Below are positions 3,367-26,249 of a DNA stretch of 28,301 bases, piece after piece. A program made the translations under genes and the position numbers. The notes beneath the pieces are model-generated. The model ran no database searches. It had not been told where the DNA came from and was given only the letters and a program-made list of their open reading frames with translations. Within the stretch, counting starts at the first letter, position 1; each line of letters opens with the position of its first letter. Location of the stretch: positions 1-28,301 of IMG/VR virus record IMGVR_UViG_3300035199_000448; one strand, written 5' to 3'. This DNA is from a virus.

Positions 3367-3744
3367 CTACCACCCAATGCATCGGGTCCAGAATGACTCA
3401 CAGAAAGCCCTGATGAACCTGGGCCTAGGTTCAGTTGTCCAGTTGAAGTTGCGATGGCCCCAAAGCCTGACCTCCAGCCAGTAGATGGTGGCTAGAAACT
3501 TCCCGAGGTCACAGCTTCTCAGGTTGCGATACAGCTTGGCGTCTGCCGTGAACCTCTCCTTCTTTCCACCCCCTGAGTTGTAGTGGAAATCGTGGACATG
3601 ACATGCTGGGGTCAGAAGCACAGCGAAGCAGCGATCCATCGATGCGGAACACCCATTCGATGTGAAGTCATCGGGTGGGTGTGGCCCCACTAGCCTGACC
3701 AGGATGTCCTGGGGCAGGTTTGCGTTGCGGTACTCTGAGGGCAT
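3367..3744 (-). CDS. Phospholipase A2-like protein with CxxHDxxY motif
   Basis: This encodes 125 residues. The ATG at 3744 shares one base with the TGA of the upstream gene (TGATG); a GTG one codon earlier is the alternative. Residues 48-55 read CHVHDFHY, an exact CxxHDxxY, the catalytic helix signature of secreted phospholipase A2 and of the parvovirus VP1 unique region, with His51 as general base and Asp52 as calcium ligand. GCSAS at 31-35 is where a calcium-loop Gly would be expected, and a second Asp at 68 (TADAKLYRNLR) fits the catalytic network. Cys32, 39, 48 and 77 could pair. There is no signal peptide. The expected reaction is hydrolysis of the sn-2 ester of phospholipids, so membrane attack at lysis or entry is possible. 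Activity is unproven. Confidence 0.65.
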   Translation of the reverse strand: MPSEYRNANLPQDILVRLVGPHPPDDFTSNGCSASMDRCFAVLLTPACHVHDFHYNSGGGKKERFTADAKLYRNLRSCDLGKFLATIYWLEVRLWGHRNFNWTTEPRPRFIRAFCESFWTRCIGW

Positions 3745-4166
3745 CACAATGGCCTGATGGTTGCGGTATGATCCGGTGCTGGCTGCACCACTGCCGGTGG
3801 ATCTTCCACAGCTTCAGGCTGTCTGTCCATAGCTATTTGAGATCCGAGCAGCACGCCAGCCCCTATTGCACCGGCTCCAATAGTCTTCGCGAGGTCTTTC
3901 ATAACACCAGTTGCAGGCGGGTGAGGTGCCTGTTTCTGCAACTGGATATCGCCAGTGATGGTAAGGTCACCCACGTCATCCTCCTCTTCTGCCTCCACTG
4001 AAGCCTGCATGCCAGCGGCTTGAGACATGGCGACATGTCCCTCCCTGGTCCTTCGTCTTGCTGCTGCCAGCATGGCCCGGTGGTCCTCAAGGCCCACCGC
4101 TGATGCTGCCGCGCCCAGTTGCACTAGCTTCTGATCCAGGTTGTCCAGCGCCGTCTGTAGCGGCAT
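3744..4166 (-). CDS. Unknown protein with a weak hydrophobic segment
   Basis: This encodes 140 residues from ATG at 4166, chosen because a strong GGAGGAGG lies 7 bases upstream; longer in-frame starts would lack such a site. The N-terminal half is helical and Ala/Arg-rich (LDNLDQKLVQLGAAASAVGL, then AAARRRTREG), followed by an acidic patch (EAEEEDDVGD). A Gly/Ala-rich stretch TIGAGAIGAGVLLGSQIAM near residues 100-118 could be a weak membrane segment. The tail is proline-rich. It overlaps the upstream gene by 80 bases in another frame and the downstream PLA2-like gene by one base. A membrane-associated role is possible but not shown. Confidence 0.6.
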   Translation of the reverse strand: MPLQTALDNLDQKLVQLGAAASAVGLEDHRAMLAAARRRTREGHVAMSQAAGMQASVEAEEEDDVGDLTITGDIQLQKQAPHPPATGVMKDLAKTIGAGAIGAGVLLGSQIAMDRQPEAVEDPPAVVQPAPDHTATIRPL

Positions 4167-4972: not shown

Positions 4973-5593
4973 TCACGTTCTGCCCCTGCATGCGGCGGTT
5001 GCAAACTCTGCGATGCACCCCCGAATCGCGTACATCACGCGACCCTTGATAGGGCCACCCCATAGCACGGCGACCAGCTTGTTGTCAAAAACTATAGCCC
5101 CCCCGCTGTCACCTGATATTGCGTTGCCATCCACCTCGATTTCATGCCGTCCACTATCGCTGGCCCGGTATCCGTTGACAGTCGTATTCCAAAGCGTCAA
5201 CTTCCCGGTGGTCCCTCCGAACCCAGCAACTTGAACAGGGTGACTGGCGCGTGGGCGGTGATCCAGTGTGGCAACTGGCAGAGTGGCTGTACCATCTGGA
5301 ATCGCCAACTGAATCACCGCTTGATCCGCTTTACTGTCTTTCCAAATGACTGTGCCATTAGATTTGAAACCGTTCTCCCACTTAGCGACCACCTTGGTTG
5401 CTCTACCAACAACGTGATGATTGGTCAGCAGCGTACCGACGCCATCGTCAACCGACACCAACACGCCAGTTCCCCTGGCATTGCCGGCGGTCACAGTGCA
5501 GAGTGCGTCAACCCAGGCGGGATCTTCGGCGTGAAGAATTAGCGGCATCAAGAGGGCCAGCGCAACTGACCTGATCGCTTTTCGGAAATCCAT
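4973..5593 (-). CDS. Exported trypsin-like serine protease
   Basis: A 206-residue S1-type protease. The N-terminus has a basic start (MDFRKAIRS), a hydrophobic core (VALALLMPLIL) and an HAE cleavage site near residue 22, a classic Sec signal peptide. The catalytic triad is visible: LLTNHHVV with His60, DSKADQAVIQLA with Asp90, and GDSGGA with Ser163, followed by VFDNKLVAVLWGG as in HtrA/glutamyl-endopeptidase relatives. There is no PDZ domain. ATG at 5593 is preceded by GAGGAGGCAGGG. It would act outside the cytoplasm, cleaving periplasmic or extracellular proteins. The gene lies below the CsrA-like gene. A phage-encoded secreted trypsin-like enzyme is uncommon; a role in lysis, superinfection control or host modification is only inferred. 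Confidence 0.87.
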   Translation of the reverse strand: MDFRKAIRSVALALLMPLILHAEDPAWVDALCTVTAGNARGTGVLVSVDDGVGTLLTNHHVVGRATKVVAKWENGFKSNGTVIWKDSKADQAVIQLAIPDGTATLPVATLDHRPRASHPVQVAGFGGTTGKLTLWNTTVNGYRASDSGRHEIEVDGNAISGDSGGAIVFDNKLVAVLWGGPIKGRVMYAIRGCIAEFATAACRGRT

Positions 5594-5686: not shown

Positions 5687-5866
5687 TTAATTCGACCTAC
5701 GCTTTCGGGGGCTGTCAACCCGTCTCTTCTTTTTCCGGTGTGTCACCCTGGTCTTATGGGGCGCGTCGAAGCGTGCGACCAGCCTTCCCTTTTTCCTGTG
5801 GATCAGGATATCACAGGGGCCATCGACCCGTATGACATCGCCGGGCGACAGGTTGCGGTGCAGCAT
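5687..5866 (-). CDS. csrA: CsrA/RsmA-like RNA-binding protein
   Basis: A 59-residue protein, ATG at 5866 with GGAGG 5 bases upstream and stop TAA at 5687-5689. It lines up with CsrA along its length: Gly9, then a VIRVDGPCDILI strand, the Lys-Gly-Arg turn (KKGRLVARFDAP, Gly27 aligning with CsrA Gly27), the Ala-Pro pair at 35-36, and THR with His43-Arg44 in the same positions as the His43-Arg44 of E. coli CsrA, where Arg44 binds RNA. The tail is very basic (RKKKRR, RKRRSN) instead of the usual helix. CsrA family proteins bind GGA motifs in mRNA leaders and control translation. It could act on host or phage mRNAs, including the GGA-rich leader of the protease gene below it. The homology call is from motif alignment by eye. 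Confidence 0.72.
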   Translation of the reverse strand: MLHRNLSPGDVIRVDGPCDILIHRKKGRLVARFDAPHKTRVTHRKKKRRVDSPRKRRSN

Positions 5867-5896
5867 GGATGCCTCCAGGGTGGGAAGCTGCCCATG

Positions 5897-6493
5897 CTAA
5901 TCCATTTCCGGCTGCGCCTCCAGATACGATTTCAACTTGCGTGGATCTCGCAGGTGTTTTAAGGGCATCTGGAGACAGGGGCCACTGCGCATCGTGTACT
6001 GCTCGGCGTGCGCGACAAACTCCTCCCAGAGGCACCACCCCTGGAACTCACCTTCCGTGATCCTCTCGGGATCTTCTGGCTGGTGTCGCTCGGTGAACGT
6101 GAACGTGTAGATATCTACCGCCTGGGGCTGCACGTCCCGCACCCTCACCCCGGCGATGTTTAGTCTCTCGGTGTTCTTGTTATCGATCCGCAGACCGTAC
6201 CGGCTAACGAAGTCCCTCTTGAAATCTCTGCGAGTGTCATCCTCATCCACGGGCAGGTCTATCAAGTGACCAATGATGTACTCGCCCATCAGCCCATCGT
6301 AGTGGGGGTTTTTTTTCATACCCTTCCTCCACTCGTCGCCGGTTCTCACGTCCCTGTCGTGCCGGATCTTCGCGTGCTTCAGGGCCTTGACGTGCCAGTC
6401 GTATGGACACCGCACCCAGATCGATCCCTCGTGCGAACCAAGGTTGGGGTACGCAGAGTTGCGAACCTGTCTTCGCTGTTTCAAAGATGTCAT
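5897..6493 (-). CDS. Unknown protein, possible PD-(D/E)XK nuclease-like fold
   Basis: This encodes 198 residues from ATG at 6493, with GGGAGG 6 bases upstream. The N-terminal third is basic and helical (HVKALKHAKIRHDRD). GLMGEYIIGHLIDLPVD (about residues 67-83) resembles the helix with a conserved Glu at the start of many phage PD-(D/E)XK-like proteins. A run of beta-like segments follows (RYGLRIDNKN, RVRDVQPQAVDIYTFTFTER) and then a Trp-rich stretch (FQGWCLWEEF). I do not see a clear D-x(n)-ExK catalytic core, so the nuclease idea is weak. It lies immediately below the helicase gene, which fits a DNA-metabolism role. Confidence 0.6.
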   Translation of the reverse strand: MTSLKQRRQVRNSAYPNLGSHEGSIWVRCPYDWHVKALKHAKIRHDRDVRTGDEWRKGMKKNPHYDGLMGEYIIGHLIDLPVDEDDTRRDFKRDFVSRYGLRIDNKNTERLNIAGVRVRDVQPQAVDIYTFTFTERHQPEDPERITEGEFQGWCLWEEFVAHAEQYTMRSGPCLQMPLKHLRDPRKLKSYLEAQPEMD

Positions 6494-6506: not shown

Positions 6507-7880
6507 TTAGAAAGTTACGTTTGCCCCCCAGTCAGGCTGTTGGACTCCGTTCTTGAACGTCGTGGTGTCCCGGTCCCAGTGTATGTTAAACGCACCAACC
6601 GGGCCATTCCTCTGCTTCACGACCATCAGTGAATACTCGTCTACCTCGCCCTGTTTGTTGTCATGTTTGTGAATGAAGATCACAACGTCTGCATCCTGCT
6701 CTATCGCTCCCGACTCCCGCAAGTGGTGCAACCTGGGCTTCTCGTCGGAGGCCCCCCGATTCAACTGGCAGCAACATACCACGGGTATATCCAACTCCAG
6801 GCTCATCCTTTTGAACTCCCTGGATATGCTGGCTACGTCCCTCTCACGCCCCTCTCTCCTCTTCAGTTGGCTGGGACTGGGTGTCACTAGCTGGAGATAG
6901 TCCACCAACACCATGCCAATTGGCAGCTTACTGGAAGACAGCATGGCCCTCAGCTGGAGTGCTATGTTCTCGGGGGAAAACCTCCCTCCCGTGACCACAT
7001 CCATGGGCAGACCCTTTATCACGTCGCATGCCTCCAGCACCACATCGCGAGTGTCCCCCAGCATCCCTGACCGCAGCTTGCGACTCTCGACCCCGCTAAT
7101 GGAAGACAACAGGCGGTCACATAGCTCGTCAGCGTGCATCTCCAGGCTGTACAGCACGGCACGAGGGCCACCCTCCGCTACGTGATGCGCAATATTTAAA
7201 GCGAGGCTCGTCTTACCCACCCCAGGTCGGGCGGCAATCACAATCAACTGTCCCTTCCTGAACCCGCCGCCAAGCAGGGTATCCAGGTCGGAGAATCCCG
7301 TGGGGCTGATGCGTCTGGCCCGCTGCTCGTTGGTCTCAGAAAGTCGCTCCTCAAACCTCTCCACCAGCCTACTGGTCGGTGCAATATCAGCCGCCATCTT
7401 GCGTGCTTGGGCTGCGTATAGATCCGATATGGTCTGGGCCAGCCTGTCCTGCACAGACTCCTCCCTCGCCTGTGAGGCCCTCAGAGCTTCATAGAGCGAC
7501 GTTTGCATTTTACGCTCTATGCTCCACTCCCTCACCTTTTCGGCGTAGAAGAGGGCGTGTGGCCCCGTAGGAACGATCCTGCCTATCACCTTCGTCAGAA
7601 CCTCCAGCCCGCCAGCCTTCTCTAGGGTTTCCGCTTGGCGCAGGTGGGTGACCAGCAGAGTGGGGTCACACTTCTTCTCCCTCGTCCACATGTGGAAGAT
7701 GGCATCATAGAGAACCTGATGAGCCTCGGGAAAAAAGTCTTCCGCTGTTACTGTCTCGCGCACGAGGTTCAGTTGGGTGCTGCTTACCATGATCGCAGCC
7801 AAGCAGCCGATCTCTGAGTCCTCGTCCCAGGGCAGTGTGGCCCCCAGGTCAATCGCCTTAGTCGTCTCACGCTTTGCCAT
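6507..7880 (-). CDS. dnaB: Replicative DNA helicase, DnaB-type
   Basis: A 457-residue hexameric helicase that would unwind DNA ahead of the replication fork. ATG at 7880 was chosen for its GGAGGAAGGG ribosome binding site; upstream in-frame starts lie inside the preceding gene. The N-terminal domain opens with LPWDEDSEIGCLAAIM, typical of DnaB. The RecA-like ATPase domain has Walker A ARPGVGKTS (Lys at about 223), the MGVLVD-type Walker B as MVLVDYLQLV (Asp at about 327), CCCQLNRG, and the DnaB signature LRESGAIEQDADVV followed by the arginine-finger region KQRNGPVG. It lies directly after the putative initiator gene, overlapping it by 14 bases, as helicase and loader genes often do. Confidence 0.95.
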   Translation of the reverse strand: MAKRETTKAIDLGATLPWDEDSEIGCLAAIMVSSTQLNLVRETVTAEDFFPEAHQVLYDAIFHMWTREKKCDPTLLVTHLRQAETLEKAGGLEVLTKVIGRIVPTGPHALFYAEKVREWSIERKMQTSLYEALRASQAREESVQDRLAQTISDLYAAQARKMAADIAPTSRLVERFEERLSETNEQRARRISPTGFSDLDTLLGGGFRKGQLIVIAARPGVGKTSLALNIAHHVAEGGPRAVLYSLEMHADELCDRLLSSISGVESRKLRSGMLGDTRDVVLEACDVIKGLPMDVVTGGRFSPENIALQLRAMLSSSKLPIGMVLVDYLQLVTPSPSQLKRREGRERDVASISREFKRMSLELDIPVVCCCQLNRGASDEKPRLHHLRESGAIEQDADVVIFIHKHDNKQGEVDEYSLMVVKQRNGPVGAFNIHWDRDTTTFKNGVQQPDWGANVTF

Positions 7881-8427
7881 TCCCTTCCTCCATTCCGAGT
7901 TCAATCCGTTGACGTTGAAGTTCCTCGCGAGACAGCATAGGCACGTCCTCACCACCCCGCGTCCTACGCCCCCCTTTTTTCGAAAGGGGGGTAGGGGGGT
8001 TTAATACTCTTCTCTTCTCTTCTCTGGTCACGCTCATGTCACGTTCGGAGCGTGACATTTTTGGGACAGAATCGTCCCGCGCATTCCTCTTGCGAATCGC
8101 CGCAAGTCCCCTGGCCTTAGCACCTTGCGACAGATGTCGCTCGAAGTTGGGGATGTGGATAACGGGTCGGTCACCACTGTCGTCGTACTCCAGCCACCCG
8201 ACCTCGACTAGCAATTCTGGGAACCCCGGCAAACCAAGACGACGCCCGAGGGACACAAGCGTGACACCTGTCACGCTGCCAGCGTGACATTGGCGTGACA
8301 CCCACGACCAGAAAGCGTGACAATAACCCACGATTGTCTCCTCCCTGACCTCCAGTTTCTCTGCCATCTCCAGCACAGCGGGATCTTCCATCAGGTCTAG
8401 CCGCATCTTGATCCAGTCGCCTGCCAT
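7867..8427 (-). CDS. Putative replication initiator/organizer protein
   Basis: This encodes 186 residues from ATG at 8427 (GGAG 8 bases upstream). The N-terminal 120 residues have the look of a winged-helix phage replisome organizer: WIKMRLDLMEDPAVLEMAEKL, then a helical GYCHAFWSWVSRQ, LVSLGRRLGLPGFPELLVEVGWL and IPNFERHL. The C-terminal third is basic and low in complexity, partly created by a palindromic repeat (NPPTPLSKKGG). The gene ends inside the start of the DnaB gene, which supports a helicase-loading or origin-binding job. It also contains eight copies of a GCGTGACA-type repeat in different codon phases. The family assignment is inferred from architecture and context, not from a signature motif. 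Confidence 0.65.
   Translation of the reverse strand: MAGDWIKMRLDLMEDPAVLEMAEKLEVREETIVGYCHAFWSWVSRQCHAGSVTGVTLVSLGRRLGLPGFPELLVEVGWLEYDDSGDRPVIHIPNFERHLSQGAKARGLAAIRKRNARDDSVPKMSRSERDMSVTREEKRRVLNPPTPLSKKGGRRTRGGEDVPMLSREELQRQRIELGMEEGNGKA
7969..7999. repeat. C6T3/A3G6 palindrome inside the initiator gene
   Basis: CCCCCCTTT (7969-7977) and AAAGGGGGG (7983-7991) form a perfect 9-bp stem with a TTTCG loop, followed by TA and a second run of six G. Palindromes of this form, encoding PP-L-KKGG-like peptides, are known as interspersed repeats in several bacterial groups. Here it lies in frame in the basic tail of the initiator protein. Confidence 0.6.
8025..8058. repeat. Iteron-like cluster I (3 copies)
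   Basis: Three copies related to GCGTGACA: inverted at 8025-8034 (one mismatch), inverted at 8036-8045 (one mismatch) and direct at 8049-8058. The second and third make an inverted pair ATGTCACG-N5-CGTGACAT. They lie next to a polypyrimidine tract (8008-8025) and the 7969-7999 palindrome. They read in different codon phases of the overlapping gene, pointing to selection on the DNA itself. Confidence 0.65.
8258..8323. repeat. Iteron-like cluster II (5 copies), candidate origin
   Basis: Five exact copies of GCGTGACA in 66 bases: direct at 8259-8266, inverted at 8269-8276, direct at 8282-8289, 8293-8300 and 8315-8322. The first two form a 20-base inverted repeat (9-bp arms, 2-base spacer). The last three are spaced 11 and 22 bases, about one and two helix turns. 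They lie inside the putative initiator gene just upstream of the DnaB gene. This is the layout of a phage replication origin such as that in lambda O. Confidence 0.7.
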
Positions 8428-13173: not shown

Positions 13174-16100
13174 CTACCCTCCACCGTATCTCGCCCAGTT
13201 AGATCGCAGGCGATCAATGTAGATGTCCTTGTCCATGTCGTACTTGTGCATGTGCCTCTCGATCTCCCTCCGACTCAGCCCGGTGCGACGGAGGAACTGG
13301 ACAGACCCCCTGACCAGCGATTTTCTGTCTTTTGCCTTCTCTTTCCACACCGCGAGGGGGGGGCCACCCGCCTTGCGATCAACCCTATACAGCAGGGGCT
13401 TAGTTGCGTTCCTTATTAGCGTCCCCATCACCTTGTCTCGCACTTTCTCTATGCCGCTCGGAACTTCGCCCTTCCAGATTGTCGGGAACTTCTCTAGTTG
13501 CCGCAGGCCAGTGGCTTCCCTTGCCATGCCTATTGCGTATTTCTGCCCCGCGTGCAGCCTCTCCTTGGGATCTCGGATATTTTCGATCTCCTTAAAGATG
13601 CCGCCGAGTATACCGGAGTACTTGTTATTAACGAAGTACGCATCACTCAACATGGAGTTCATCGGAATGTGACCAGCCAACGCCGTGTTGTATGTTTCCT
13701 TAACACCGGGCCACTGCTTTTCGTAAAAGAATTGCAGACTTCTGGAAGACTCACGATCCCTGAACAAGGTGTGCATGCCTGGGATGTCTCGCCACGTTGG
13801 TGACCTGTCACCCTTCGCTATATCAACCCACTTGGCATACCTACCGTACATATTGCCGGTCCACTGATTTGCCGCATGTTCAACTTTGACTGGCCCCCAC
13901 CCAAACTCGCCCATGGCTGGAGACGCCGTTACCTTGGCTAGCATCTTGCTTGCCCATAGCGTCGTCGGCGTTGACCTGTACTTTGGTTGCAAGTGCTGTA
14001 GTCGCATCCCCTCGATTTTCTTGTGCTTGAAGAAGTTGTGGTTAAAGCTCGTGCCGAGAAGTGGACCGCCAACAGAAATGCTACTTATTAAATCCCCAAC
14101 CTGCCCCACAAGCCTGGGGGGGGACAGCAAATGAGCCGGGGTAATAGACGCCGGGAAGATCTGCATATTGTTATCCATGACGTGCCAGAACGCATCAGAA
14201 AACGCGCTCTTGTCCTCGGTCGCCATGGCATTCAGGGAACTTTCCACGGCGTTAAACACATGGCCCGTATCATACCCCTTGGCGACGTAAATATAACTTC
14301 CGTCAGGCAACGGGATCACCCAGTACATATTCTTCACATGAGCCGGTAGCTCCACGTACCAATCCTCGTCATGCACCAAGGCCCAATAGGACAGCGCCAT
14401 GGTGGCTCCTGCGATCCACCACTCGGCAAGGTGCTTCCAGTTCCGGCGTTTGTCGGTCAACATCCTGGCAAACCCAGAACCGGGAACCTCCGTTGACGCC
14501 AGTGCCTCCACATGAATTCTCGCCAGCTTATCCGCAGCATTGACTCCCGCGCTCCAGAACATACTGACCTTGTTCATCTTCTCCCCCCACTCCCCCTGTT
14601 TCATGAAATCCAATATCGAGTCATTGGCCTCCAGAGTCGCCTGCTCTTTTATCCACAAGGGGGGCTGCTCAAGTATCCATTGCCCGTCCCACTTTCCGTC
14701 AGCGCCTTTGCTCTGCTTGTGCCACTTGTACTTTCCCTTATCTTTCCCTTTCCCGGTCACCTCCCGCATCTCGTAACCATGGGCGGCATGCACAGCGTAG
14801 TATTCTGCAACACGAGCAGATATATCACTCATTGTGACAAACGACCTTACGTTGTCGATGCTCGTCAGCCATGCAGTGCGTCCCGTCTTGGTTGTCAGTG
14901 CCTGGAGTGGACGCAGGGGATTTTTCGGCATGTCCCAAATTCCCGTCTCCTTTAGTCTCTTCACCAAGTTGGGGGTAAATCCCACGACCGGATCTTTGGA
15001 ATCCAGTATCGCCTGATTAACTTTATGGTTCACGTCCACCTCGTCACCAGACAGTTCACCGTAGAACCCGCCCATCCTGCCAGCCCTGCGATTGAACTCT
15101 TCGATTACTTCATTGTAGGGCGCACTCTTGTCACCTTTCATGTGCTTCTGGATTTGCGTTGACCACCAGTACGCAGCGCCTAACGCATTGTGTGGACTGC
15201 GTCGGCGGCTATTCATGGCATACTGAAGCGGATTGCGTATCCAATCCATCACCGCAAATGACGGGTTCAGATATACGGCACCAGCTTTCCTGATATGTGT
15301 CATCTTAGCTATCATTCGTAGCGTACCCGCTTGCGGTACGTATGGCGTCGAGTTCAACGCCTCCACCAATCGAGGATCAACCCATGCCGTGTAACGCTTC
15401 AGTTCCCCATCCTCACCTTTTATGTTCACCGAGTACTGATGGTATGCAAGCACGGTTTGCTTTGCGCCTCGCCGCCGCACCTTGTCGGATATGTCCACTG
15501 GCCCGAAGGACGAGATGGCAATATACCCGTCTTCTACTCCCTTCAGGGACGCCTGCTCGATCATCTGATCGCGTAGTTCAACCCAGTTAGTCGCGTCCTC
15601 TGGGATGTCCTCGTCTTTGTGGTATTCCTGCCACAAGTCCCTTATGGAATCCTTGACCTCATCTGTTACATCTTCGTCGCGAGGTTCCGTTTTGCTAATC
15701 TCGCGATCCTGGTCTGTTCGCGCCTTGTCGTCTCGCAAGACCGTGGCGTTATAAATATCATCAGCCTCTTGCTGGTCTAAATAAGCCTTTTTAACCATCT
15801 CCTCCAGGGTTCCATGGAGCTTCTTGTGATCGATATCACTTGCGCCTTTCTCGTCTACCGGGATGAAGTATTCGCTGATGGCACCAGCTTCCCCACCCAT
15901 CTCCTCCCAGGGGATATCCCTGTTTTCCTGTAACCTCTCGTCGAGCATCTGGAACATTGCCACTGTCTTGTGCTGCGCTGCGATTGCCTTGTACAGTTGA
16001 TTGGTTTTAATGAGCGTGGCAACGATAGGATTAACATGCGTCGTCCAGTTCTCGCTACCCGTGGCGCTTCGGTAATAGCTGTAGGTTCCTGGTGCCTTTT

Positions 16101-19100
16101 TGATTAACTTCTGGAATTTATTGACGTGGCGGTCATGGAATTCGTGCTTCTCCACCTGCCGTATAAGCGGGTAATACTTCTCGTGAGCCGCCTCTATCTT
16201 GTCGAACTCGTCAGCTTTAAGTATCCCGTGCTTACGTCGCAGTCTCTGAATGTTCCTCCACAATTGCCGAAGCATCTCTGCCATCTCCACATGCCTCTCA
16301 AGATCGGCATCGCTTTTCTTCTGGGCTTTGCGTAGCTCTGCCAGTTCTTTCTTCTCCTTGTTCGTAAGGGACTTTTTGCTTTCCAGTTCTTCTATCTGGG
16401 CCTTGCGGTCGTCCCCCCTTCGCTCTTTAAGAATAGCCGCAGCCGTGTACGCATCCATCCCGGCATCGTACCCAGGCTTTTTCCCTCCCACGACTATCGT
16501 TCTCCCATCATCGGGGTCGATCTCCACGGTTCCTGTTTGTTCCTCTGCATGCTCGGCGTGCATAAACATACTCAGCCTATTCAGGTCGCCCTCCATGTCT
16601 TCAGGGTCCAGTAGCCCCAGCGCCCTCTTTATTCCGTGATTACCCTCTGTGCCTTCGGGGTCATCAGCAATCGTGTAGACCACCGTGGTAATGTCCTCTA
16701 GTTCCCCGAGTCGTTTTTCCATGTCCTTGATTAGTGACAACTTCGCCTTCTCGATTGTCGGCAAGGCATGCAAACTCCTCAGTTCGATCTCTCGCGTCTT
16801 GCTTGGTCTCTTTCCTTCAACTTTAAGGGCCTTGACCCTGCTCAACTCCTTCTCTAGGGACGCATGGTCGGCTATCGCCTTGTCGAGTTCATCTCCCCCA
16901 ATTGCCAGGGGGTCACGTATGCCTTCTGCGAAGGCGTCCATAGACCACTGTGACTCCTTGCCGTACCACAATCGAAACACGTCACTCATGGCGGCGCGAC
17001 CACGACCCTCGTCGTCCCTACCAATCCTTAGACCCGAGCGCCGTAACAGTTTCTCCACTTGGGTGGGGAAGTGTATTTTGTCTCCATGCATCCGGTATCC
17101 CCACTCCAGTAAAGGTTCCCATGCATACCAGGATGTCCACTCCGTCCACATTTCCTTGGCGTCCCGTGTTTTCCCCGGCACCATCCTGTTGGCCTCCCAG
17201 CGATCCACCTCCCGTTGCTCCCGATACTTGTCTACGATGTCCCGCGAGCGGGCCAGTTTATCCGCTTGCTCGCTATTGCCCTCAATCCACCGCTCAAAGT
17301 ACCCATACGCAACGGGTGTTCTCGCCTCTAGGGCACGAGTGAAAATCCTCTTGTCAGCCTTTTCTACCTTTATGATTTCGCTAAGTTCATCCAGCCTGTC
17401 CAGCTGCTTGTCTGTAGCCTTACCCCCAGCGTTCTCGATTTTATTAACTATGCTCTGGAGTCTCGCCTTGGCCTCTACCGCCTTGTCGTATACCTCGCCC
17501 TCTATCAGCCCAGGCTCAGGTTCGTCTTGCATGACATATTGCCGGAAGAATTCTGCAAACCCACCCTCGATACTATCGTCCCACGACAACGCCTGTAATT
17601 CATCCTGTATCTCCCTGGCATCTGCCTTGGAAACGCCGTTCTTAATCATCTCGTCTGCGGTCCACACCTTGGTGTTGTTGGCGAATGCCTGACCCATAGC
17701 ATGTGCGGTTATGGAAATATCCAAGTTGGATCTCTCGTGGGTAAACACCATATTACGAAGCGCCCTGTAGGACGCGGCAACCCTCTTGCTCCACCTTTTC
17801 TCCATCATGAGCCGGGGCACTCCCCATATATCTTCCAACTCCTTCACCACCTGGGAATTTGCGACTCGCGCATCTGAACGACGCGCCTCGTCTATAGACT
17901 TGTAGGTTACCGTTCGCTTAGCGCCTCTAGGGAAGCGTACCGAATATCTACTGCCGGCATCCCCGGTGGGCCTCTCCGTAATATTCACGCCACGATCTAC
18001 CCAGAATGATTCTTCCGTTAACAACCTTTCCGCGACCCCAGCCTGGAACCCTTTGAAACCAGGATAGATGGATGTGATGATTTTCCTCAAGAACTTTTTG
18101 ATGCGGTTTATCAGCCTGTCTCGCTGCGCAAGATTGGCCCCCACGGCACCAGCCACAGCTTCCTCTTTCCTGAGATCGGTGTTGTGCGTAATATCCGTGT
18201 GTTTATTTACTAACGTCTTCCACTCGCTTTCTGTCCACAACCCCAGGTGCCGCGCCACATGAACCAGTTCCTCCCAGACCGATGCGTCTAACTCCTCAGC
18301 GCTCTGCTCGCCAAGATTTTCTAGTAACCGAACGATACCTATAACGCTATCGGATTCCCCGTTGCTCTTAGTAAGCTCCCAACCACCTAGAACTTCCAGT
18401 TCATCTATCTCCTCGTCAGACAACTCTTCTTCGGTATATGACTCTCTGAGGAGTGCGCGGTCTATCGTGTCTGGGTCCAGGCTTTCCAGCTTCACCCACT
18501 TGCCACCTCCCAGGTCGATATGTATTCCTGTCTTGCCACCCATCTCCCGCTTCTGAACCTTGGCCCACGGTAACAACTCCATAAGCCTCTTGATAACAGC
18601 CGCCCTGACCGGCGCTCTGTCCCTGGGTGGTGGTTCTGTTTCCCTCGCCGGAACCTCGGGCACTTCCTGCCGCTCGGCAAGTTTCTCAGACCTCTCAAGC
18701 ACCTTCTCCTCGTACAGCTTGAAGTTGGCGACATCCCGTTCGTTCTCGAACTCCTCTCCCTTGGAGTGCCTGAAGGATAGATCGTTAATGGTCGCTTCTA
18801 CTTCGGTTCTCGCGGAAGCCTCTGACGCCTCATTTTCACCAAGCATCTTCCGGCTAAGGAATTTGGTCGCTTCCGCTCTGCTCTTAAATCCGACTTGGTT
18901 GGCAAACAGCTTGGACATTGCGTCCCTGAACGGCAAGCGATCCAGATCCTTGTCCTGAATCCTCCACCTCCGACCGGCTCCCAGCTTCAATGTCAACTCT
19001 ACGCCACCCACCGTGCCAGTGCTTTCGCCTGGAGGAAAGGGTGTTTGCAGCATGCCCCTTACGGCGCGTCTAAATCCGACCACCTCCAAGGGGGCTGGGG

Positions 19101-22100
19101 GTTCTACTGCCTCGGCAACCGCTTCGGCGGCAGGGGTGGGTTTGGCTAACGTGGCCTTTGCCCTCCTAAGACCAGCAGCCTCGGCATTGATCTCGTCTGC
19201 CCTGGTTCTTTCCGCTAAAGCGTCGAACTCACCCCGGCTTACCCTTGTCCTTACGTCTTCATCCCCCAGCCACCTGCGGGTTGCAAAATGCCAGGGTTCA
19301 TGCACAGCAATAACGTCTTCGGGGTTTATGTCACCAACAAATGTGGCATCACTACTTGAGTCTTGTATTTCTTTAATACTGCCAGTTCGTTGTGATATTG
19401 TCCCGCCAATTCTCGGATCATCGTGTGGCACAGAAAACTCGACCACCAGTTTTTCCTCTATTCCCTTGGGTGGTTTTCTAGAGGCCCATATCTGATTTGG
19501 TTCGCCATACGTTTCTCCACGCGCACTGCCCATGCGTATCCCTGTACCCCGCAAAGATTCCGCTGCTCCGTGTACTTGTGTTTCCCACGGTGTTTCTTCA
19601 TCCGATGATTCCACGTTGGAATAATGAAAGAATCTAATATGGTTATCCGGTATCGCGGCTGTCCCAGGTTGCTCTGGAATTACATCATCCAGCGCATAGT
19701 CCCCCGTTGGTTCCGCGACCTCCTCGGTGACAGGGGTCTCGACAGCCGCTTCAGTGACGGGGGCAAGATCGGGATACTCAGCTAAGACTTCGGCGGGTAC
19801 GGTCTTGCCTTCCGAGAGGGCGATAGCAACAAGTCTCTCGTGGTTACTTCTGAGGATCTCGCTATCGCTGGCTGGGCCATGGGCTGTATCTATATACGAT
19901 TCCCCTGTCTCCGCGTTGATGCGTATATTCCCGATTTTACCCAACTCGCCTGATGTCATCTCGTGCGGTTCTATGGCGACAACGTCCTCGGTGACGGGGG
20001 GTTCGACAACCGATTCGGTGACGGGGGCTGGGGCAAGCGGCTTGCGTGGCCCGGTCTCCTTAGAATCAAGCTCCACATTCCATGTGAAGCCTGCCGCAGG
20101 AGTTTGCCCATAACCATCTGGGTCTGCCTGTGCATTTACCTCCTCAGTGGGCATGTCCACGTACTGAAGTTCTGACCCCTTGCGGTAATTCGCCGCATAA
20201 GACCTGTCGGTGCTGAACCACGCTGTCCCTTCATAGCGACCATGTGACGCGCTGCCGTGATACAGCCGCGTCATGCCTTTCTTTAAGGGCGGCTCCGGAG
20301 AAGGGCTAGATCCATGTCGTTGATCCGAGAGATCCTGACTCTCAGGTACAGACTCCCCCCCTGTTGTCTTTTCCGCGACAACGTCAACTTCCTCGGGTAC
20401 GACATGTTCTGCAGAATCTGTTGCGCCTTCAGGAGGGAGCCGAAGATCGGGGGTAGGGTCTGAGAGCCAGATGCCGGAATCTTGGGCTGTAGAATCTGCC
20501 GCGTCTGCGGGAGGGAGCCAGAGACCGGAATCTTGGGCTGTAGAATCTGCCGCGTCTTCAGGAGAGAGGACGATGGGTCCACCCCTCCATTTCTCTGACC
20601 CCTCTACTGCTAGTGTTGCAGCGGGATCATTTAGGGCTACTTCCTGGGGCACGTAGTTATCGCCCACTACCGCCCAACCGTCCTCCCTGGGAACCTCTTC
20701 TTCATACATGTCCCACTGCTTCTTGTTGACCGGCTTGCGGTTTGCAACACTTTCTTCTAGCTGTGCGACTGCCGCCTCCTGAGAGAATAACGCTTCGGCA
20801 AACAACGCCCTCTGATGCTTGCCTAGCTTCGGCAACGGAGTTTTAGACAACTTCTCAGCCGCTCGCCATCGCGGAACCTCACCTATGTCGCTACCTTTCC
20901 CCTCGTCAGAACCGAATGTTTTGACTATCTCTGCTACTGCCTCCCCATTGCCTTCACCGGCATCGTTCGTTGCCCTCCGGTAGTCCTTAGCCATCTCGTG
21001 CAACTCTCGTTTTCGCGAGTCGTGGACCCTATCAGCAACAGCGCCGACCCCTCTTCGTGCTGCCATCGGAACAGACAACACTGCCGCCATAAAGATCATC
21101 TCTTTTGCCGCCTCTGCCGCCATTTCAGGATCAAGCGTTCCCATCGCCTTCAATCCCTTGCCGGTTGTGCCGCCACCCAATTCCCCCTCACCAAAACCAA
21201 TAGGCTTACCAGTTACTTTTTCAGCCGCCACAGATGTCATCCCGAGAACATCGTTCAGCACCTCTTCGCTGAGTTCACCCATCATATTATGAAAACCAAT
21301 ACGATCAGACGTCCTTTTCAACTGCTGGCTAAGAGGTGACCCATCACCCTTGCGGGCTAGGCGATTTAATACAGCCTTGGACAGCATCCAATCCTTGGTG
21401 GCGTCGGAAGCGTTCAGGAAACTCCTCCCGAGCGGAGAAGCAGACAGCTTCTTTACCAAGGCGCTGCTCATCACCAACCCGCCCACCTTGGATATATCTC
21501 CACCCATCATTTCCGAACCCAATACCGACGCCGTTTTCCCGAAGGCAGCGGGGAAGTTGTGCATGAAAGCATTTAAGAACTCGCCCTTGTGGTCGTTGTT
21601 CTTAGCAACAGCATCTATCTCGCCACTGGTCTCCTTAGACACCTGGAACCTTTCGCTCAACAGCACATCCGTAAGGCCCATCTCGACGTTGTACTTCACA
21701 ACGGTCTGCGGATTGGCTGCGGCGATAGCCGTGCCACCGACCACAGCACCTGCGGCGTGCGCACTGAGCTTTTTCTTTAAGCTCACGTCAATCGCCTTCT
21801 TTGTCGCCCCAGCGGCTACCGCTTCCGCTGTTTCCTTGCCACCCTTGAGAAGTCCCTTAACCACCGCTCCCTTGGCTAAGGTGTAAGCCCCCCCGGTAAG
21901 CCCTAGCTCCGCAAACAACGGCACCAACCCCAATACCGCATCCCCGAACTTTTCAATCGTAGACCAATCGCCACGGGCAGCAGCCTCGCCGGTAGATTTT
22001 GCAGCTAGCATGTAATCGTTACGTTTTGATTTCCCGTCGCGAATACGAAGGGCAGCCATCATCCCATCGGTTGTTTCCGCTGCCGATATAATGTCCCGTG

Positions 22101-22506
22101 TAACCGGAACAGCTGTTCTCGATATGTATTCCCCCCAACTCGCCTCCTCAAAGAGTTCCTTGTTTGCGCGAACTGCTGCCGCCCACCGGGTCTGCGCGTC
22201 GTATTGTGAATCAACAGCCACGGCTGCCGGATTGGACTCTAGCAGGTCTCCTAGCTTGACATCATCCTCCTCGCGTTCACTTATCGATGCCTGCTCCTCT
22301 CGCATCATGTTCAGCTTCTCTTGATAGCCACGATGTTCCGTTTGCAGGCGATCCCGCTCCTGTTTCTTGATCCAGTCGCGCTGCTGTTGCAGCTGGGCCA
22401 TCTGAGAAGGCAGATCTGGTGGTGGTTCGACCTGCTCAGGAGACTGAAGGCTGGGGTCGGGAAGAAGCTGCTGCTCCTCCTCTTCGTCTAGCAAGTAAGG
22501 AGGCAT
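13174..22506 (-). CDS. Giant polyvalent internal-virion-type protein, 3110 residues
   Basis: ATG at 22506 is chosen (AGGAAA just upstream, 14 bases after the previous stop); a longer frame lies in the upstream gene. In order: acidic/Gln-rich coiled N-terminus; hydrophobic Ala/Gly helices (about 190-290 and 470-500); two 17-residue repeats (about 645-680); an ADP-ribosyltransferase-like segment RLYHGS...AWFSTD...AANY (747-774); PVTE repeats; a second such segment FFHYSN (959-964) to VHEPWH (1068-1073); a zincin-like segment EELVHVARHLGLW (1412-1424) whose first metal-binding His is replaced by Glu; long coiled coil (about 2030-2090); and a C-terminal region (about 2400-2800, with LNPSFAVMDWIRNPLQ and YWVIPLPDG) resembling large polyvalent-protein domain LPD38. 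Such proteins are packed in virions and injected with the DNA. No RNA-polymerase or lysozyme motif was found. Confidence 0.9.
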   Translation of the reverse strand: MPPYLLDEEEEQQLLPDPSLQSPEQVEPPPDLPSQMAQLQQQRDWIKKQERDRLQTEHRGYQEKLNMMREEQASISEREEDDVKLGDLLESNPAAVAVDSQYDAQTRWAAAVRANKELFEEASWGEYISRTAVPVTRDIISAAETTDGMMAALRIRDGKSKRNDYMLAAKSTGEAAARGDWSTIEKFGDAVLGLVPLFAELGLTGGAYTLAKGAVVKGLLKGGKETAEAVAAGATKKAIDVSLKKKLSAHAAGAVVGGTAIAAANPQTVVKYNVEMGLTDVLLSERFQVSKETSGEIDAVAKNNDHKGEFLNAFMHNFPAAFGKTASVLGSEMMGGDISKVGGLVMSSALVKKLSASPLGRSFLNASDATKDWMLSKAVLNRLARKGDGSPLSQQLKRTSDRIGFHNMMGELSEEVLNDVLGMTSVAAEKVTGKPIGFGEGELGGGTTGKGLKAMGTLDPEMAAEAAKEMIFMAAVLSVPMAARRGVGAVADRVHDSRKRELHEMAKDYRRATNDAGEGNGEAVAEIVKTFGSDEGKGSDIGEVPRWRAAEKLSKTPLPKLGKHQRALFAEALFSQEAAVAQLEESVANRKPVNKKQWDMYEEEVPREDGWAVVGDNYVPQEVALNDPAATLAVEGSEKWRGGPIVLSPEDAADSTAQDSGLWLPPADAADSTAQDSGIWLSDPTPDLRLPPEGATDSAEHVVPEEVDVVAEKTTGGESVPESQDLSDQRHGSSPSPEPPLKKGMTRLYHGSASHGRYEGTAWFSTDRSYAANYRKGSELQYVDMPTEEVNAQADPDGYGQTPAAGFTWNVELDSKETGPRKPLAPAPVTESVVEPPVTEDVVAIEPHEMTSGELGKIGNIRINAETGESYIDTAHGPASDSEILRSNHERLVAIALSEGKTVPAEVLAEYPDLAPVTEAAVETPVTEEVAEPTGDYALDDVIPEQPGTAAIPDNHIRFFHYSNVESSDEETPWETQVHGAAESLRGTGIRMGSARGETYGEPNQIWASRKPPKGIEEKLVVEFSVPHDDPRIGGTISQRTGSIKEIQDSSSDATFVGDINPEDVIAVHEPWHFATRRWLGDEDVRTRVSRGEFDALAERTRADEINAEAAGLRRAKATLAKPTPAAEAVAEAVEPPAPLEVVGFRRAVRGMLQTPFPPGESTGTVGGVELTLKLGAGRRWRIQDKDLDRLPFRDAMSKLFANQVGFKSRAEATKFLSRKMLGENEASEASARTEVEATINDLSFRHSKGEEFENERDVANFKLYEEKVLERSEKLAERQEVPEVPARETEPPPRDRAPVRAAVIKRLMELLPWAKVQKREMGGKTGIHIDLGGGKWVKLESLDPDTIDRALLRESYTEEELSDEEIDELEVLGGWELTKSNGESDSVIGIVRLLENLGEQSAEELDASVWEELVHVARHLGLWTESEWKTLVNKHTDITHNTDLRKEEAVAGAVGANLAQRDRLINRIKKFLRKIITSIYPGFKGFQAGVAERLLTEESFWVDRGVNITERPTGDAGSRYSVRFPRGAKRTVTYKSIDEARRSDARVANSQVVKELEDIWGVPRLMMEKRWSKRVAASYRALRNMVFTHERSNLDISITAHAMGQAFANNTKVWTADEMIKNGVSKADAREIQDELQALSWDDSIEGGFAEFFRQYVMQDEPEPGLIEGEVYDKAVEAKARLQSIVNKIENAGGKATDKQLDRLDELSEIIKVEKADKRIFTRALEARTPVAYGYFERWIEGNSEQADKLARSRDIVDKYREQREVDRWEANRMVPGKTRDAKEMWTEWTSWYAWEPLLEWGYRMHGDKIHFPTQVEKLLRRSGLRIGRDDEGRGRAAMSDVFRLWYGKESQWSMDAFAEGIRDPLAIGGDELDKAIADHASLEKELSRVKALKVEGKRPSKTREIELRSLHALPTIEKAKLSLIKDMEKRLGELEDITTVVYTIADDPEGTEGNHGIKRALGLLDPEDMEGDLNRLSMFMHAEHAEEQTGTVEIDPDDGRTIVVGGKKPGYDAGMDAYTAAAILKERRGDDRKAQIEELESKKSLTNKEKKELAELRKAQKKSDADLERHVEMAEMLRQLWRNIQRLRRKHGILKADEFDKIEAAHEKYYPLIRQVEKHEFHDRHVNKFQKLIKKAPGTYSYYRSATGSENWTTHVNPIVATLIKTNQLYKAIAAQHKTVAMFQMLDERLQENRDIPWEEMGGEAGAISEYFIPVDEKGASDIDHKKLHGTLEEMVKKAYLDQQEADDIYNATVLRDDKARTDQDREISKTEPRDEDVTDEVKDSIRDLWQEYHKDEDIPEDATNWVELRDQMIEQASLKGVEDGYIAISSFGPVDISDKVRRRGAKQTVLAYHQYSVNIKGEDGELKRYTAWVDPRLVEALNSTPYVPQAGTLRMIAKMTHIRKAGAVYLNPSFAVMDWIRNPLQYAMNSRRRSPHNALGAAYWWSTQIQKHMKGDKSAPYNEVIEEFNRRAGRMGGFYGELSGDEVDVNHKVNQAILDSKDPVVGFTPNLVKRLKETGIWDMPKNPLRPLQALTTKTGRTAWLTSIDNVRSFVTMSDISARVAEYYAVHAAHGYEMREVTGKGKDKGKYKWHKQSKGADGKWDGQWILEQPPLWIKEQATLEANDSILDFMKQGEWGEKMNKVSMFWSAGVNAADKLARIHVEALASTEVPGSGFARMLTDKRRNWKHLAEWWIAGATMALSYWALVHDEDWYVELPAHVKNMYWVIPLPDGSYIYVAKGYDTGHVFNAVESSLNAMATEDKSAFSDAFWHVMDNNMQIFPASITPAHLLSPPRLVGQVGDLISSISVGGPLLGTSFNHNFFKHKKIEGMRLQHLQPKYRSTPTTLWASKMLAKVTASPAMGEFGWGPVKVEHAANQWTGNMYGRYAKWVDIAKGDRSPTWRDIPGMHTLFRDRESSRSLQFFYEKQWPGVKETYNTALAGHIPMNSMLSDAYFVNNKYSGILGGIFKEIENIRDPKERLHAGQKYAIGMAREATGLRQLEKFPTIWKGEVPSGIEKVRDKVMGTLIRNATKPLLYRVDRKAGGPPLAVWKEKAKDRKSLVRGSVQFLRRTGLSRREIERHMHKYDMDKDIYIDRLRSNWARYGGG
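20474..20575. repeat. Two tandem 51-bp repeats in the giant gene
   Basis: Copies begin at 20474 and 20525 with near-identical sequence (CCGGAATCTTGGGCTGTAGA and onward) and encode the 17-residue unit ADAADSTAQDSGIWLPP. A more diverged third copy may follow toward 20410 (EGATDSAEH). They lie in a low-complexity linker ahead of the first ADP-ribosyltransferase-like segment. Confidence 0.8.
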
Positions 22507-22520
22507 GTGAGTTTCCTGAG

Positions 22521-24965
22521 TTAATCTGACATCATCAGTAAGGCGTCCCCTAAACCTAGCGGTCTGGCTTCTTCCTCGCCGATGGCGTTCCATTTGCCCA
22601 CCTGCTTCAGGTGCGCACGAATTCGTTTAGCCACAACAGCGGGTTCCGATATCGATCCTCCGGAATCCACTCCGTGGAACTTACCTATTGCCTTTGTGAC
22701 CTCGCGATGGAGAACTGAAAACTTCTCCCGGTCAGCCTTTGTCCACTTAGATAGTGGCTTGACGTTCTTTCGTACCAACTCCTCCATCTGCTCCGCAGCC
22801 TGCGTCGTTTCGCCATCAGAACCCAACTTCAACCAGGATGGACTCTCCATCGCCTCCACTAGCCTCTCGTCCCTGTAAGTAACTGCTAACTTCTGGAGGC
22901 CAGTTTTCTGATCAGAAGTCATCCGGTCCAGAGAATTACGGAGAGGATACTCGTCTAACCCCGACAAGTGCTGGTATTCGGAGACGGAGATGGTTTCCGA
23001 GTGCGATCCCCAGCCACCAGGAGGCAGACCCTTCACTAATTCGCTCGACCCGGTTGGTCGCATGAACCCCCGCTGGGTCGTGGGTTCTCCTGGGGGTAGC
23101 TCCACCTCTGGTTCTGTCTGTTCGCTGACCTGTGGTGGTGTTTCGTCTATTGCAGACTTGTTGAGATCCGCCAGGATATTTTTAACCTTCTGGGGCCAAT
23201 ACCTAGAGTCTGTTCCGTATTCTTTCCTCATATTGGAACTCAACTCGTAATACGCATTGACAATATCCTGGTTGTGTTCCAGCTGCTCAGTTTGAGGCAG
23301 TGTATTTGTCGGTATAAACTGGGGTGGAGGCGCATTGGGATCTCCTGTATTCAGGTATGCTTGCACCCGCTGCCCCACCGTGGGCGCTTGCGGCTGTTCG
23401 GGAATACCCCCCTGTGGCAGTTGCATGCCCTGTTGGGGTGGACCGCCCTGCGGGGGTTGACCTCCCTGTGGCAGTTGCACGCCCTGTTGCGGCTGACCGC
23501 CCTGTTGCGGCTGACCCCCCTGTGGCAGTTGCACGCCCTGTTGCGGCTGACCGCCCTGTTGCGGCTGACCCCCCTGTGGCAGTTGCACGCCCTGTTGGGG
23601 TGGACCGCCCTGTTGCGGCTGACCGCCCTGTTGCGATAGTATCCTAGTAGGATCGGGGCCTTCGGCGGCACCTTCTGGACGGGAGTCGTCCCTAAGAATC
23701 GGATACCGTTCCTTCAACCCCTCCATCGCCGGGAAGTCGTTGTTTAACTGTTCATACTCGCCTCTCGTCGCTGGGTCTCTAAGGAGTTCTTGTATGACTA
23801 CATCATCCTCAATATACGGCTGTTTACTCTTCGCTCTCGCTAGTTCTTTTTCTTCATCCGTCAAGTCGGTTCTTGCGTCAAGTCTAGCATCCAATTCATG
23901 CTCGAACCTTCTCTGTAGTTGTGTTCTTGCAGAGGACAACAAAGGTTTAAGGGCGGTTCTCCTTTCTTTCAGCTTCTGATCGGCTTCGTTTAGCGCCCGT
24001 TGCTTTCTCCAGTTATGTAACTCCCAAAGGACTTTATTGTCTGGTGGTTTGCCTGCCCGTAGTGCCGCGTCCATTGCTATCTGGGAGTGGATTACGTTAG
24101 ACGGTGGGCTTGTACCCAAAGCGCCCTTTCCGATAGTCCCAAGAGACTTCGTCGCGGCAGAGTAGTCCTTGAAATGGTCAGGGGCGGGGGGAGGCTTTTC
24201 TACGTCGTCCCAAACATGTTTAGTTTGCACCGTCCCCCCACGGAATTGATCTTCGGCAGTCCCCCATATCTCCCTATTGTGTGCATCCAATATAGGTGTA
24301 CCGTCAGGTCTCTCCTTCCGCACCCGCCGCTTGTTTGATTCTTGCTGCGGGCTGGGGAGGCGATTGTCTTCGTGTGCCACCAAATCTTTAGCGTTCCACA
24401 ACTCGTTGGTAAGGCCCTTGTCGTATGCGTCCTTCTGGGCCTCTGTTAAACCATCAGCCTCTGGGCTGTTGTGAAGGTCGTGTATCTTCTGCTTAATTCT
24501 CTCTATCTTTACCTTGTCCAACTCCGTAATCCGCCACTGTTCCAAGTCCTTCAGCAGGTCGTTCTGCTCCTTTGCCCGATCCATCGCCCTCTCGTCACGA
24601 CTCTTCTCCCTCTCCCCCATCATCCCCTGCTGCTCCCGCATGCGCTCCATCTGGGCACCGTGCCCCATTTGCTCGCGCCGCGCCTGCATCGCCTGACGAG
24701 CCATATCCTGTTGGCCTGCCACCGCCTGACGACCCATCGCAGCAGATTCCGCCTTGGCCTGACGGGCCATGCGCCCACGCTCCTGCATCATATCCATTTG
24801 CCGCCGGATGTTTGCTTGCCGTTTCTTTTCGGCAAGTTCAGCCAACGCCATGCGGTGCTTGCGCAGCCGCTCCCGCTCTTCCGCTTGAAATTGCGCCTGG
24901 GCACCTTCGCGTATTCCCTTTACGGCTAACGCAATAGGGCCTGCATGTCGTATTCTTGGTGGCAT
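22521..24965 (-). CDS. Coiled-coil, Gln/Pro/Gly-repeat virion-type protein, 814 residues
   Basis: ATG at 24965; the ribosome binding site is weak. Residues 20-170 form a long charged coiled coil with Met/Gln/Arg-rich stretches (MGRQAVAGQQDMARQAMQ). A mixed helical middle follows, then at about residues 440-520 a repeat tract of hexapeptides QGGQPQ/QGGPPQ/QGVQLP arranged as 18-residue units, and a C-terminal globular part (from about 600) with EYQHLSGLDEYPLRNSLDRM. There is no enzyme motif, signal peptide or membrane segment. It lies 14 bases upstream of the giant gene and downstream of other repeat-rich proteins. This fits an internal core or ejection protein packed with the giant protein, by analogy with the gp14-gp15-gp16 order in T7-like phages. 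The analogy is inferred from position and composition only. Confidence 0.8.
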   Translation of the reverse strand: MPPRIRHAGPIALAVKGIREGAQAQFQAEERERLRKHRMALAELAEKKRQANIRRQMDMMQERGRMARQAKAESAAMGRQAVAGQQDMARQAMQARREQMGHGAQMERMREQQGMMGEREKSRDERAMDRAKEQNDLLKDLEQWRITELDKVKIERIKQKIHDLHNSPEADGLTEAQKDAYDKGLTNELWNAKDLVAHEDNRLPSPQQESNKRRVRKERPDGTPILDAHNREIWGTAEDQFRGGTVQTKHVWDDVEKPPPAPDHFKDYSAATKSLGTIGKGALGTSPPSNVIHSQIAMDAALRAGKPPDNKVLWELHNWRKQRALNEADQKLKERRTALKPLLSSARTQLQRRFEHELDARLDARTDLTDEEKELARAKSKQPYIEDDVVIQELLRDPATRGEYEQLNNDFPAMEGLKERYPILRDDSRPEGAAEGPDPTRILSQQGGQPQQGGPPQQGVQLPQGGQPQQGGQPQQGVQLPQGGQPQQGGQPQQGVQLPQGGQPPQGGPPQQGMQLPQGGIPEQPQAPTVGQRVQAYLNTGDPNAPPPQFIPTNTLPQTEQLEHNQDIVNAYYELSSNMRKEYGTDSRYWPQKVKNILADLNKSAIDETPPQVSEQTEPEVELPPGEPTTQRGFMRPTGSSELVKGLPPGGWGSHSETISVSEYQHLSGLDEYPLRNSLDRMTSDQKTGLQKLAVTYRDERLVEAMESPSWLKLGSDGETTQAAEQMEELVRKNVKPLSKWTKADREKFSVLHREVTKAIGKFHGVDSGGSISEPAVVAKRIRAHLKQVGKWNAIGEEEARPLGLGDALLMMSD
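23413..23634. repeat. 54-bp tandem repeats, four units
   Basis: Units starting TGTGGCAGTTGCA begin at 23413, 23467, 23521 and 23575, exactly 54 bases apart, each encoding 18 residues (VQLPQGGQPQQGGQPQQG and variants). The two inner units are almost identical; the outer ones carry CGGGGG or GGGGTGG variants, suggesting recent copy-number change. Confidence 0.9.
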
Positions 24966-24986: not shown

Positions 24987-26249
24987 TTAAACCAACCCCA
25001 ACATCCTAAGCTCTTCCAGGGTAAGACCGCGAATGTCTCCATAGGGGCTTGTTGATGGATGTCGCATAGCCAGTTCAAGTTCGGTAAGTTGTCCCCCCGT
25101 CTTCTTTTCTGTAGCGGGCGCGCCAACAGACACCGGAGCAGCTCCATTCCCATCCAGCACAAATCGTTCAGCCCGCTCCGCTAGGGTGGTCTTTGCGGGC
25201 GAGGAGGAAAGTGTTTCTACGGGTTTTTGTTGCCGGGTGGTCGTAGTCTGCGAGGTGGTCGTAGGCTGCGAGGTGAAGGTAGGCTGCGAGGTGGGGGTGA
25301 GTGCGACCGGGTTCATCTGGGGGTGTGTCCACGCTGGTGTATTGGACACCGGATGTACTGGAGTGCCCAGATCTGTTCGCTTACCTTCCGCGTCCCACCC
25401 AGGGAGCTTATTCTCCTTTAATTGTTTAACCATCTTGTCCATGGCCCGGTCGTAATCCTCCGGCATGGACCCCCTGTTTTTTCCGTGCCTCCTAAGACGA
25501 CTCATCAACTCGTTGTGTTCCGCGCCCGTCAGCGAGTGGTCTTTCCACGATTCTTGCGAGCCACTCTGCTTGGGCTTCGCCTTCATTCTAGATTTCCACA
25601 GCTTGGTTTGCTGCACCAGTCTATTAGCTTCTTCATTTAGTTCGTTAGCGTACTCCCCCACATCTTTTCCCGATTCAAGCTGGGCCTCGCGTAACCGCCG
25701 AACAAATTGCTTGGCTCGCTCTACTGGCATTTTTATGCCCGAATCAGAACCCTTCGCAGGAGACCTAAAGGTGTAATGGGATCTAGTGGGATTTTCAAAA
25801 TGTTTAAATATCTTCTCCCAGTAGTCTTCGTGCATTTTCTCGGCGGTGTATCTTCGTTGTCTTGTGCCCCCCCTGCCCCTTGTGGTCTTTGTGGGCGGGG
25901 TCTTTTTACCCACTCTGGTGCCCTCATGCATCTCCGGTAGCCTCTCCATTTCACGTTTCTTTTTGACTCCGGTGCCCTCATGTATCTCCGGTAGCCTCTC
26001 CATTTCACGTTTCTTTTTGACTCCGGTGCCCTCATGTATCTCCGGTAGCCTCTCCATTTCACGTTTCTTTTTGACTCCGGTGCCCTCATGTATCTCCGGT
26101 AGCCTCTGCCATTCATAATTTTTTCTGACTTCAAGCCCTGGGTGATACCGACGTGTCGGATCGTCGGCTCCTGGGTCTCCTCGTTGCGCCGCCGCTAATT
26201 CTTTTTCAAGCAGCTTGATCCTGTTTTTCAGTTCAGCTACTGTAGCCAT
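24987..26249 (-). CDS. Repeat-containing virion-type protein, 420 residues
   Basis: ATG at 26249. A short leucine-zipper-like coiled coil opens the protein (VAELKNRIKLLEKELAAAQ), followed at residues about 45-110 by four 18-residue repeats of RLPEIHEGTGVKKKREME, then a basic linker (RGRGGTRQRRY), a helical domain (about 130-260), a Thr/Gln/Ser/Pro tract (TSQPTFTSQPTTTSQTTTT) and a C-terminal segment ending GLTLEELRMLGLV. The alternation of basic repeats, helical domain and Thr-rich linker suggests an elongated structural or DNA-associated protein. No family motif was found. It precedes the 814-residue gene by 21 bases and probably belongs to the same internal virion set. Confidence 0.75.
   Translation of the reverse strand: MATVAELKNRIKLLEKELAAAQRGDPGADDPTRRYHPGLEVRKNYEWQRLPEIHEGTGVKKKREMERLPEIHEGTGVKKKREMERLPEIHEGTGVKKKREMERLPEMHEGTRVGKKTPPTKTTRGRGGTRQRRYTAEKMHEDYWEKIFKHFENPTRSHYTFRSPAKGSDSGIKMPVERAKQFVRRLREAQLESGKDVGEYANELNEEANRLVQQTKLWKSRMKAKPKQSGSQESWKDHSLTGAEHNELMSRLRRHGKNRGSMPEDYDRAMDKMVKQLKENKLPGWDAEGKRTDLGTPVHPVSNTPAWTHPQMNPVALTPTSQPTFTSQPTTTSQTTTTRQQKPVETLSSSPAKTTLAERAERFVLDGNGAAPVSVGAPATEKKTGGQLTELELAMRHPSTSPYGDIRGLTLEELRMLGLV
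25917..26110. repeat. 54-bp tandem repeats, three full units and a partial
   Basis: Units beginning GGTGCCCTCAT start at 25917, 25971, 26025 and 26079, exactly 54 bases apart. The units are almost identical in DNA, including synonymous positions, so the expansion is recent. They encode the 18-residue motif RLPEIHEGTGVKKKREME. Confidence 0.93.

Follow-up and report, generated by a model that had tools for sequence, protein, structure and literature searches.

Does the short ORF at positions 5687-5866 of the viral record IMGVR_UViG_3300035199_000448 encode a phage CsrA-like regulator, as a preliminary description of this DNA had proposed? The window analyzed here is the whole stretch of 28,301 nt, and the ORF (MLHRNLSPGDVIRVDGPCDILIHRKKGRLVARFDAPHKTRVTHRKKKRRVDSPRKRRSN), which occupies exactly these positions on the minus strand (5866→5687), is a genuine gene of 59 codons. 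A Shine-Dalgarno sequence (GGAGG, 5872..5876, minus strand) precedes its ATG with a 5-nt spacer, confirming the good ribosome binding site noted earlier. It has a positive codon score of 0.127 per codon, whereas the opposite-strand ORFs score below zero. Its GC3 is 0.72, and in both codon usage and GC3 it resembles the other genes of the phage more closely than the opposite strand does. The product is very basic (pI 11.9, net charge of approximately +14). Residues 1-44 form a putative divergent CsrA-like core, the profile match described below extending over residues 1-50, and are followed by a Lys/Arg-rich tail (residues 45-59). Helix 1 is missing, in agreement with the proposal that such a tail stands in place of the usual C-terminal helix.

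The gene fills a gap in a dense minus-strand array that reads, in order, a replication initiation-like gene, a DnaB-like replicative helicase gene (6507..7955; phrog_19, E 1.1e-88), a 198-aa ORF of unknown family (5897..6493), the 59-aa ORF and, directly downstream, a trypsin-like protease gene (4973..5593; PF13365, E 4.9e-12) whose product has a signal-peptide-like N-terminus. A search for synteny returned no relatives of the helicase or of the 198-aa neighbor. Elsewhere on the minus strand, and unusually for a phage, the region 3367-3747 weakly matched the prokaryotic phospholipase A2 family (PF09056, E 5.7e-5, under the cut-off).

The start of the gene coincides with a predicted RNA hairpin (5861..5899, minus strand) of 9+6 pairs (15 bp; -23.2 kcal/mol, z -2.7). 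Equal stability was reached by 3 of 200 shuffles, and this start is the most structured by z of the 19 genes compared. In the model, the hairpin pairs the Shine-Dalgarno sequence and the ATG, and it also holds the UAG stop of the 198-aa gene. Because it spans both the start and the upstream stop codon, it suggests that translation of the 59-aa ORF is coupled to that of the upstream gene, making the hairpin a possible translational coupling or control element. Rfam and tRNA searches returned no matches.

The 198-aa and 59-aa ORFs share a reading frame, are separated by a TAG and 10 codons, and the frame is open through the TAG. The 59-aa ORF could thus be, instead of an independent gene, the C-terminal end of the 198-aa protein, either decayed or reached by read-through. 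We consider this very unlikely: two ORFs share a frame by chance in one case out of three, the 59-aa ORF has a GGAGG and an ATG of its own, and the CsrA-like profile match begins exactly at that ATG. Moreover, TAG serves as a normal stop elsewhere in this phage, the giant gene and RecT among the genes that end in it, and recoding of TAG was rejected on the same ground. That the ORF is spurious and never translated, as its short length and lack of homologues might suggest, is more improbable still given its ribosome-binding site, positive codon score, high GC3 and place in the gene array.

Curated libraries provided no support for a CsrA assignment. No Pfam, PHROGs or NCBIfam profile matched the 59-aa ORF at E≤10; the PHROG 8397 profile, searched with the HMMER filters on, likewise gave no match up to an E of 10, and PF02599 (CsrA) matched nothing in the whole record. 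The Pfam CsrA search that the preliminary description had called for therefore came back empty at E up to 10, and the ORF lies below the curated-profile match of >27 bits that defines membership in PF02599. Homologues by which conservation could be judged were sought in phages, plasmids, viral contigs and genome contigs, and none turned up. A candidate homologue was sought in 294 genomes of Planctomycetota, a CsrA-rich group, and rejected: the best E of 9.8e-4 per genome is at chance level because 294 genomes were searched, and the hits that were retrieved do not represent a homologous gene.

These libraries are not decisive for the 59-aa ORF because Pfam CsrA also misses accepted members of the phage subfamily described below. 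It recognizes PTXU04 (E 1.7e-12) and BcepIL02, is weak on SopranoGao and Stean, and misses F1Pa and USP_25. Pseudomonas phages PP735386, MT491208 and similar ones encode accepted or annotated CsrA-like proteins undetected by Pfam CsrA at E up to 10, so that counts of phage CsrA-like genes based on Pfam are too low. Two csrA-like genes, one bacterial-type and one divergent, occur together in F116-like phages, E220, CF63a and PA8 among them.

Comparison with bacterial-type CsrA was scarcely more favorable. With an HMMER profile built from 211 phage and bacterial CsrA sequences, the alignment was confined to residues 14-25 of the ORF and was in the wrong register, and its score was equaled by 38 of 10,000 shuffles. 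Using hhalign, the register of the preliminary description was recovered (residues 7-41) at a probability of 2%, and 18 of 400 shuffles did as well. A position-anchored score against bacterial-type CsrA (equaled by 2 of 20,000 shuffles) was set aside, as it had been devised after the alignment had been seen. Likeness to bacterial-type CsrA beyond chance thus appears marginal, and on this evidence alone the CsrA-like claim would have failed.

At the residue level, Gly9, Gly27, His43 and Arg44 are numbered from Met1 as in E. coli CsrA, as the preliminary description had stated. Conversely, the Ala-Pro pair lies at 35-36 rather than 36-37, so that a 1-residue gap in strand 4 and a 1-residue insertion in the strand 4-5 loop are needed; without the insertion, position 44 is taken by His43 and not Arg44 in the HMMER alignments. 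The strongest RNA-binding phenotypes in CsrA map to Leu2, Leu4, Arg6, Ala36, Val42, Arg44 and Glu46 (PMC6692469). Of these, the 59-aa ORF keeps Leu2 and the Ala, as well as Arg44 and a Val if the gap is placed suitably, but it has lost Leu4, Arg6 and Glu46. Of the set in strands 1 and 5 (Leu4, Arg6, Val42, Arg44 and Glu46), only the gap-dependent Arg44 and a shifted Val remain. The statement that the RNA-binding residues stand at their exact positions was therefore overstated.

Stronger evidence came from a divergent subfamily. A tblastn search with E. coli CsrA led to weakly similar phage genes annotated as CsrA-like, and from these to PHROG 8397 ('CsrA-like regulator') and its relatives, found in phages of ~61-63 kb (among them BcepIL02, JC1, Parlo, SopranoGao, Itty13, Skulduggery and Pavtok). 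Against a profile of 25 phage CsrA-like proteins, none of them chosen with the 59-aa ORF, the ORF scored 14.5 bits, although this profile was constructed after failure of the bacterial-type test and CsrA had been picked by the preliminary description among many possible families. The match is in register, residues 1-50 aligning to model positions 1-50 with one gap. Shuffling with composition and ML preserved never reached this score in 50,000 trials (best, 9.5 bits), and the reversed sequence scored 6.2 bits. The ORF ranked first of the 215 ORFs of the window (E 2.9e-4; next best, 5.9 bits), and of 7310 ORFs taken from retrieved loci, none but a CsrA with an insertion came within 6 bits of it on this profile. 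Furthermore, hhalign against the divergent phage CsrA-like set gave a probability of 34-47% (E 2-4e-4), matched by 0 of 400 shuffles. Leaving out any subgroup kept the ORF at 11-17 bits, whereas true members excluded in this way scored 27-73 bits; the ORF thus exceeds noise but falls short of all known members. By these comparisons, its likeness to the divergent phage CsrA-like subfamily is clearly beyond chance.

The genomic context points in the same direction. As in the phages of the PHROG 8397 group, which carry a giant polyvalent/DarB-like protein, the window encodes a giant polyvalent protein of 3139 aa (13174..22593, minus strand) with a C-terminal LPD38 domain (PF18857, E 2.4e-22). Its only matches in the phage collection are in Vibrio phages D274 and 1.232.O, both bearing csrA. 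The giant protein of PTXU04, which also has csrA, matches the same C-terminal region, and BcepIL02 (4667-aa giant) and Parlo (3764-aa giant) each carry a CsrA-like gene as well. Since relatives of the giant protein and other giant-protein phages bear csrA, the prior for a CsrA-like reading is raised. Two further minus-strand proteins of the window contain repeats: one of 420 aa has four near-identical copies (RLPEIHEGTGVKKKREME) at 25733-26249, close to its N-terminus, and one of 814 aa has internal Gln/Gly/Pro tandem repeats (QQGGQPQQGG...) at 23351-23671.

Structure prediction pointed the other way. Single-sequence AlphaFold produced a low-confidence monomer (pLDDT 66, pTM 0.31), a hairpin whose modelled strands (residues 20-25 and 28-33) occupy the places expected of strands 3 and 4 in CsrA. 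The matches of this model among PDB and viral structures included no CsrA. A true phage CsrA used as a control (locus L201) was modelled with equal uncertainty (pLDDT 61), its strands arranged similarly and a helix added, yet Foldseek returned CsrA structures for it at a probability of 1.0; Foldseek also draws on sequence similarity, which gives the control an advantage. The fold search counts against the CsrA-like claim, although a model of such low quality does not amount to a refutation. The preliminary description had named a missing profile match together with another fold as grounds for rejection: the match is indeed missing from the curated libraries, whereas the model is of too low confidence to establish another fold.

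These negative results are what would be expected if the gene encoded an unrelated small basic nucleic-acid-binding protein (a beta-hairpin or small barrel with a K/R tail), for instance a replication or packaging accessory encoded beside the helicase, whose likeness to CsrA resulted from chance and shared beta-strand periodicity. This explanation accommodates the absence of a curated profile match, a score well under those of all true members, a fold search negative for the ORF and positive for the control, the very high pI of the product, and the adjoining DnaB and replication genes. It does not readily account for the first rank among the window ORFs on the phage CsrA-like profile, the failure of every shuffle to reach that score, or the lack of any non-CsrA ORF close in score. 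We regard it as a serious contender, yet a distinctly less probable one than homology to the phage group. The CsrA-like claim, upheld by the phage profile scan of 215 ORFs and by hhalign and opposed by Pfam, PHROGs, NCBIfam and the predicted fold, thus survives in a narrower form: the product of the 59-aa ORF is probably a phage CsrA-like protein that has diverged very far and bears a basic tail, a reading that we favor with moderate confidence.

As a very diverged CsrA-like protein, it would be a distant outlier of the PHROG 8397 regulators of giant-protein podoviruses. Residues 1-44 would form the CsrA beta-core and dimerize. Because most of the canonical RNA-binding edge (Leu4, Arg6 and Glu46) has been lost, the protein would have to contact RNA through the region of Arg44 and through the Lys/Arg-rich tail replacing helix 1. 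Such a protein may regulate phage or host messages by binding RNA more broadly and with less specificity for GGA, and with its start locked in the predicted hairpin together with the upstream stop, it would probably be made by translational coupling. The window contains 77 GGA-type sites (ANGGANG) where 76 are expected, an absence of enrichment that lends no support to the proposal that the phage tunes its own GGA-rich leaders. Given this result and the loss of key residues, action on GGA loops in the manner of CsrA is weakly supported; RNA binding via the basic tail is a more economical guess, and take-over of the host is speculation. An elaborated version, in which the GGA-reading beta-edge has been traded for the Arg/Lys tail, yielding a sequence-relaxed RNA-binding protein or one packaged in the virion and injected, with coupled translation from a hairpin-locked start, strikes us as unlikely.

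Phage csrA genes are already known from 30 of 2517 phages (PMC7366521). Functional evidence for CsrA-like genes in giant-protein phages comprises one knockdown, that of PTXU04 csrA, which resulted in smaller plaques (PMC11879866), and the detection of JC1 CsrA as a single virion peptide (PMC9144972). If our reading is correct, a member degraded at its RNA-binding edge but equipped with a basic tail would reveal what portion of the fold is retained in phages, and standard profiles would undercount phage CsrA-like genes.

Compared to bacterial CsrA/RsmA (PF02599), the 59-aa ORF retains the numbering of its glycines and of His43-Arg44 but has the Ala-Pro pair shifted by one and lacks a Pfam match, Leu4, Arg6, Glu46 and helix 1. 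The CsrA of Escherichia phage PTXU04 (gp28) is likewise a divergent phage CsrA alongside a matching giant protein; in contrast to the 59-aa ORF, it is clearly recognized by Pfam and keeps the TRR motif. The closest resemblance is to the PHROG 8397 group (BcepIL02 gp49, JC1 gp47, Parlo gp62, SopranoGao, LASTA, Itty13, Skulduggery and Pavtok), with which the ORF shares an M-L start, L/I in place of Arg6, PGD/PGE, a K-x-G turn, D-A-P, a length of 60-70 aa and the lack of a canonical helix pattern at the C-terminus. It is 14-25% identical to these members, and the Lys/Arg-rich tail is its own. Bcep22-like CsrA-like genes sit just before the major capsid gene, whereas the 59-aa gene adjoins the helicase side, between the 198-aa ORF and the trypsin-like gene; this pre-capsid position is not universal, as PTXU04 csrA adjoins a holin gene.
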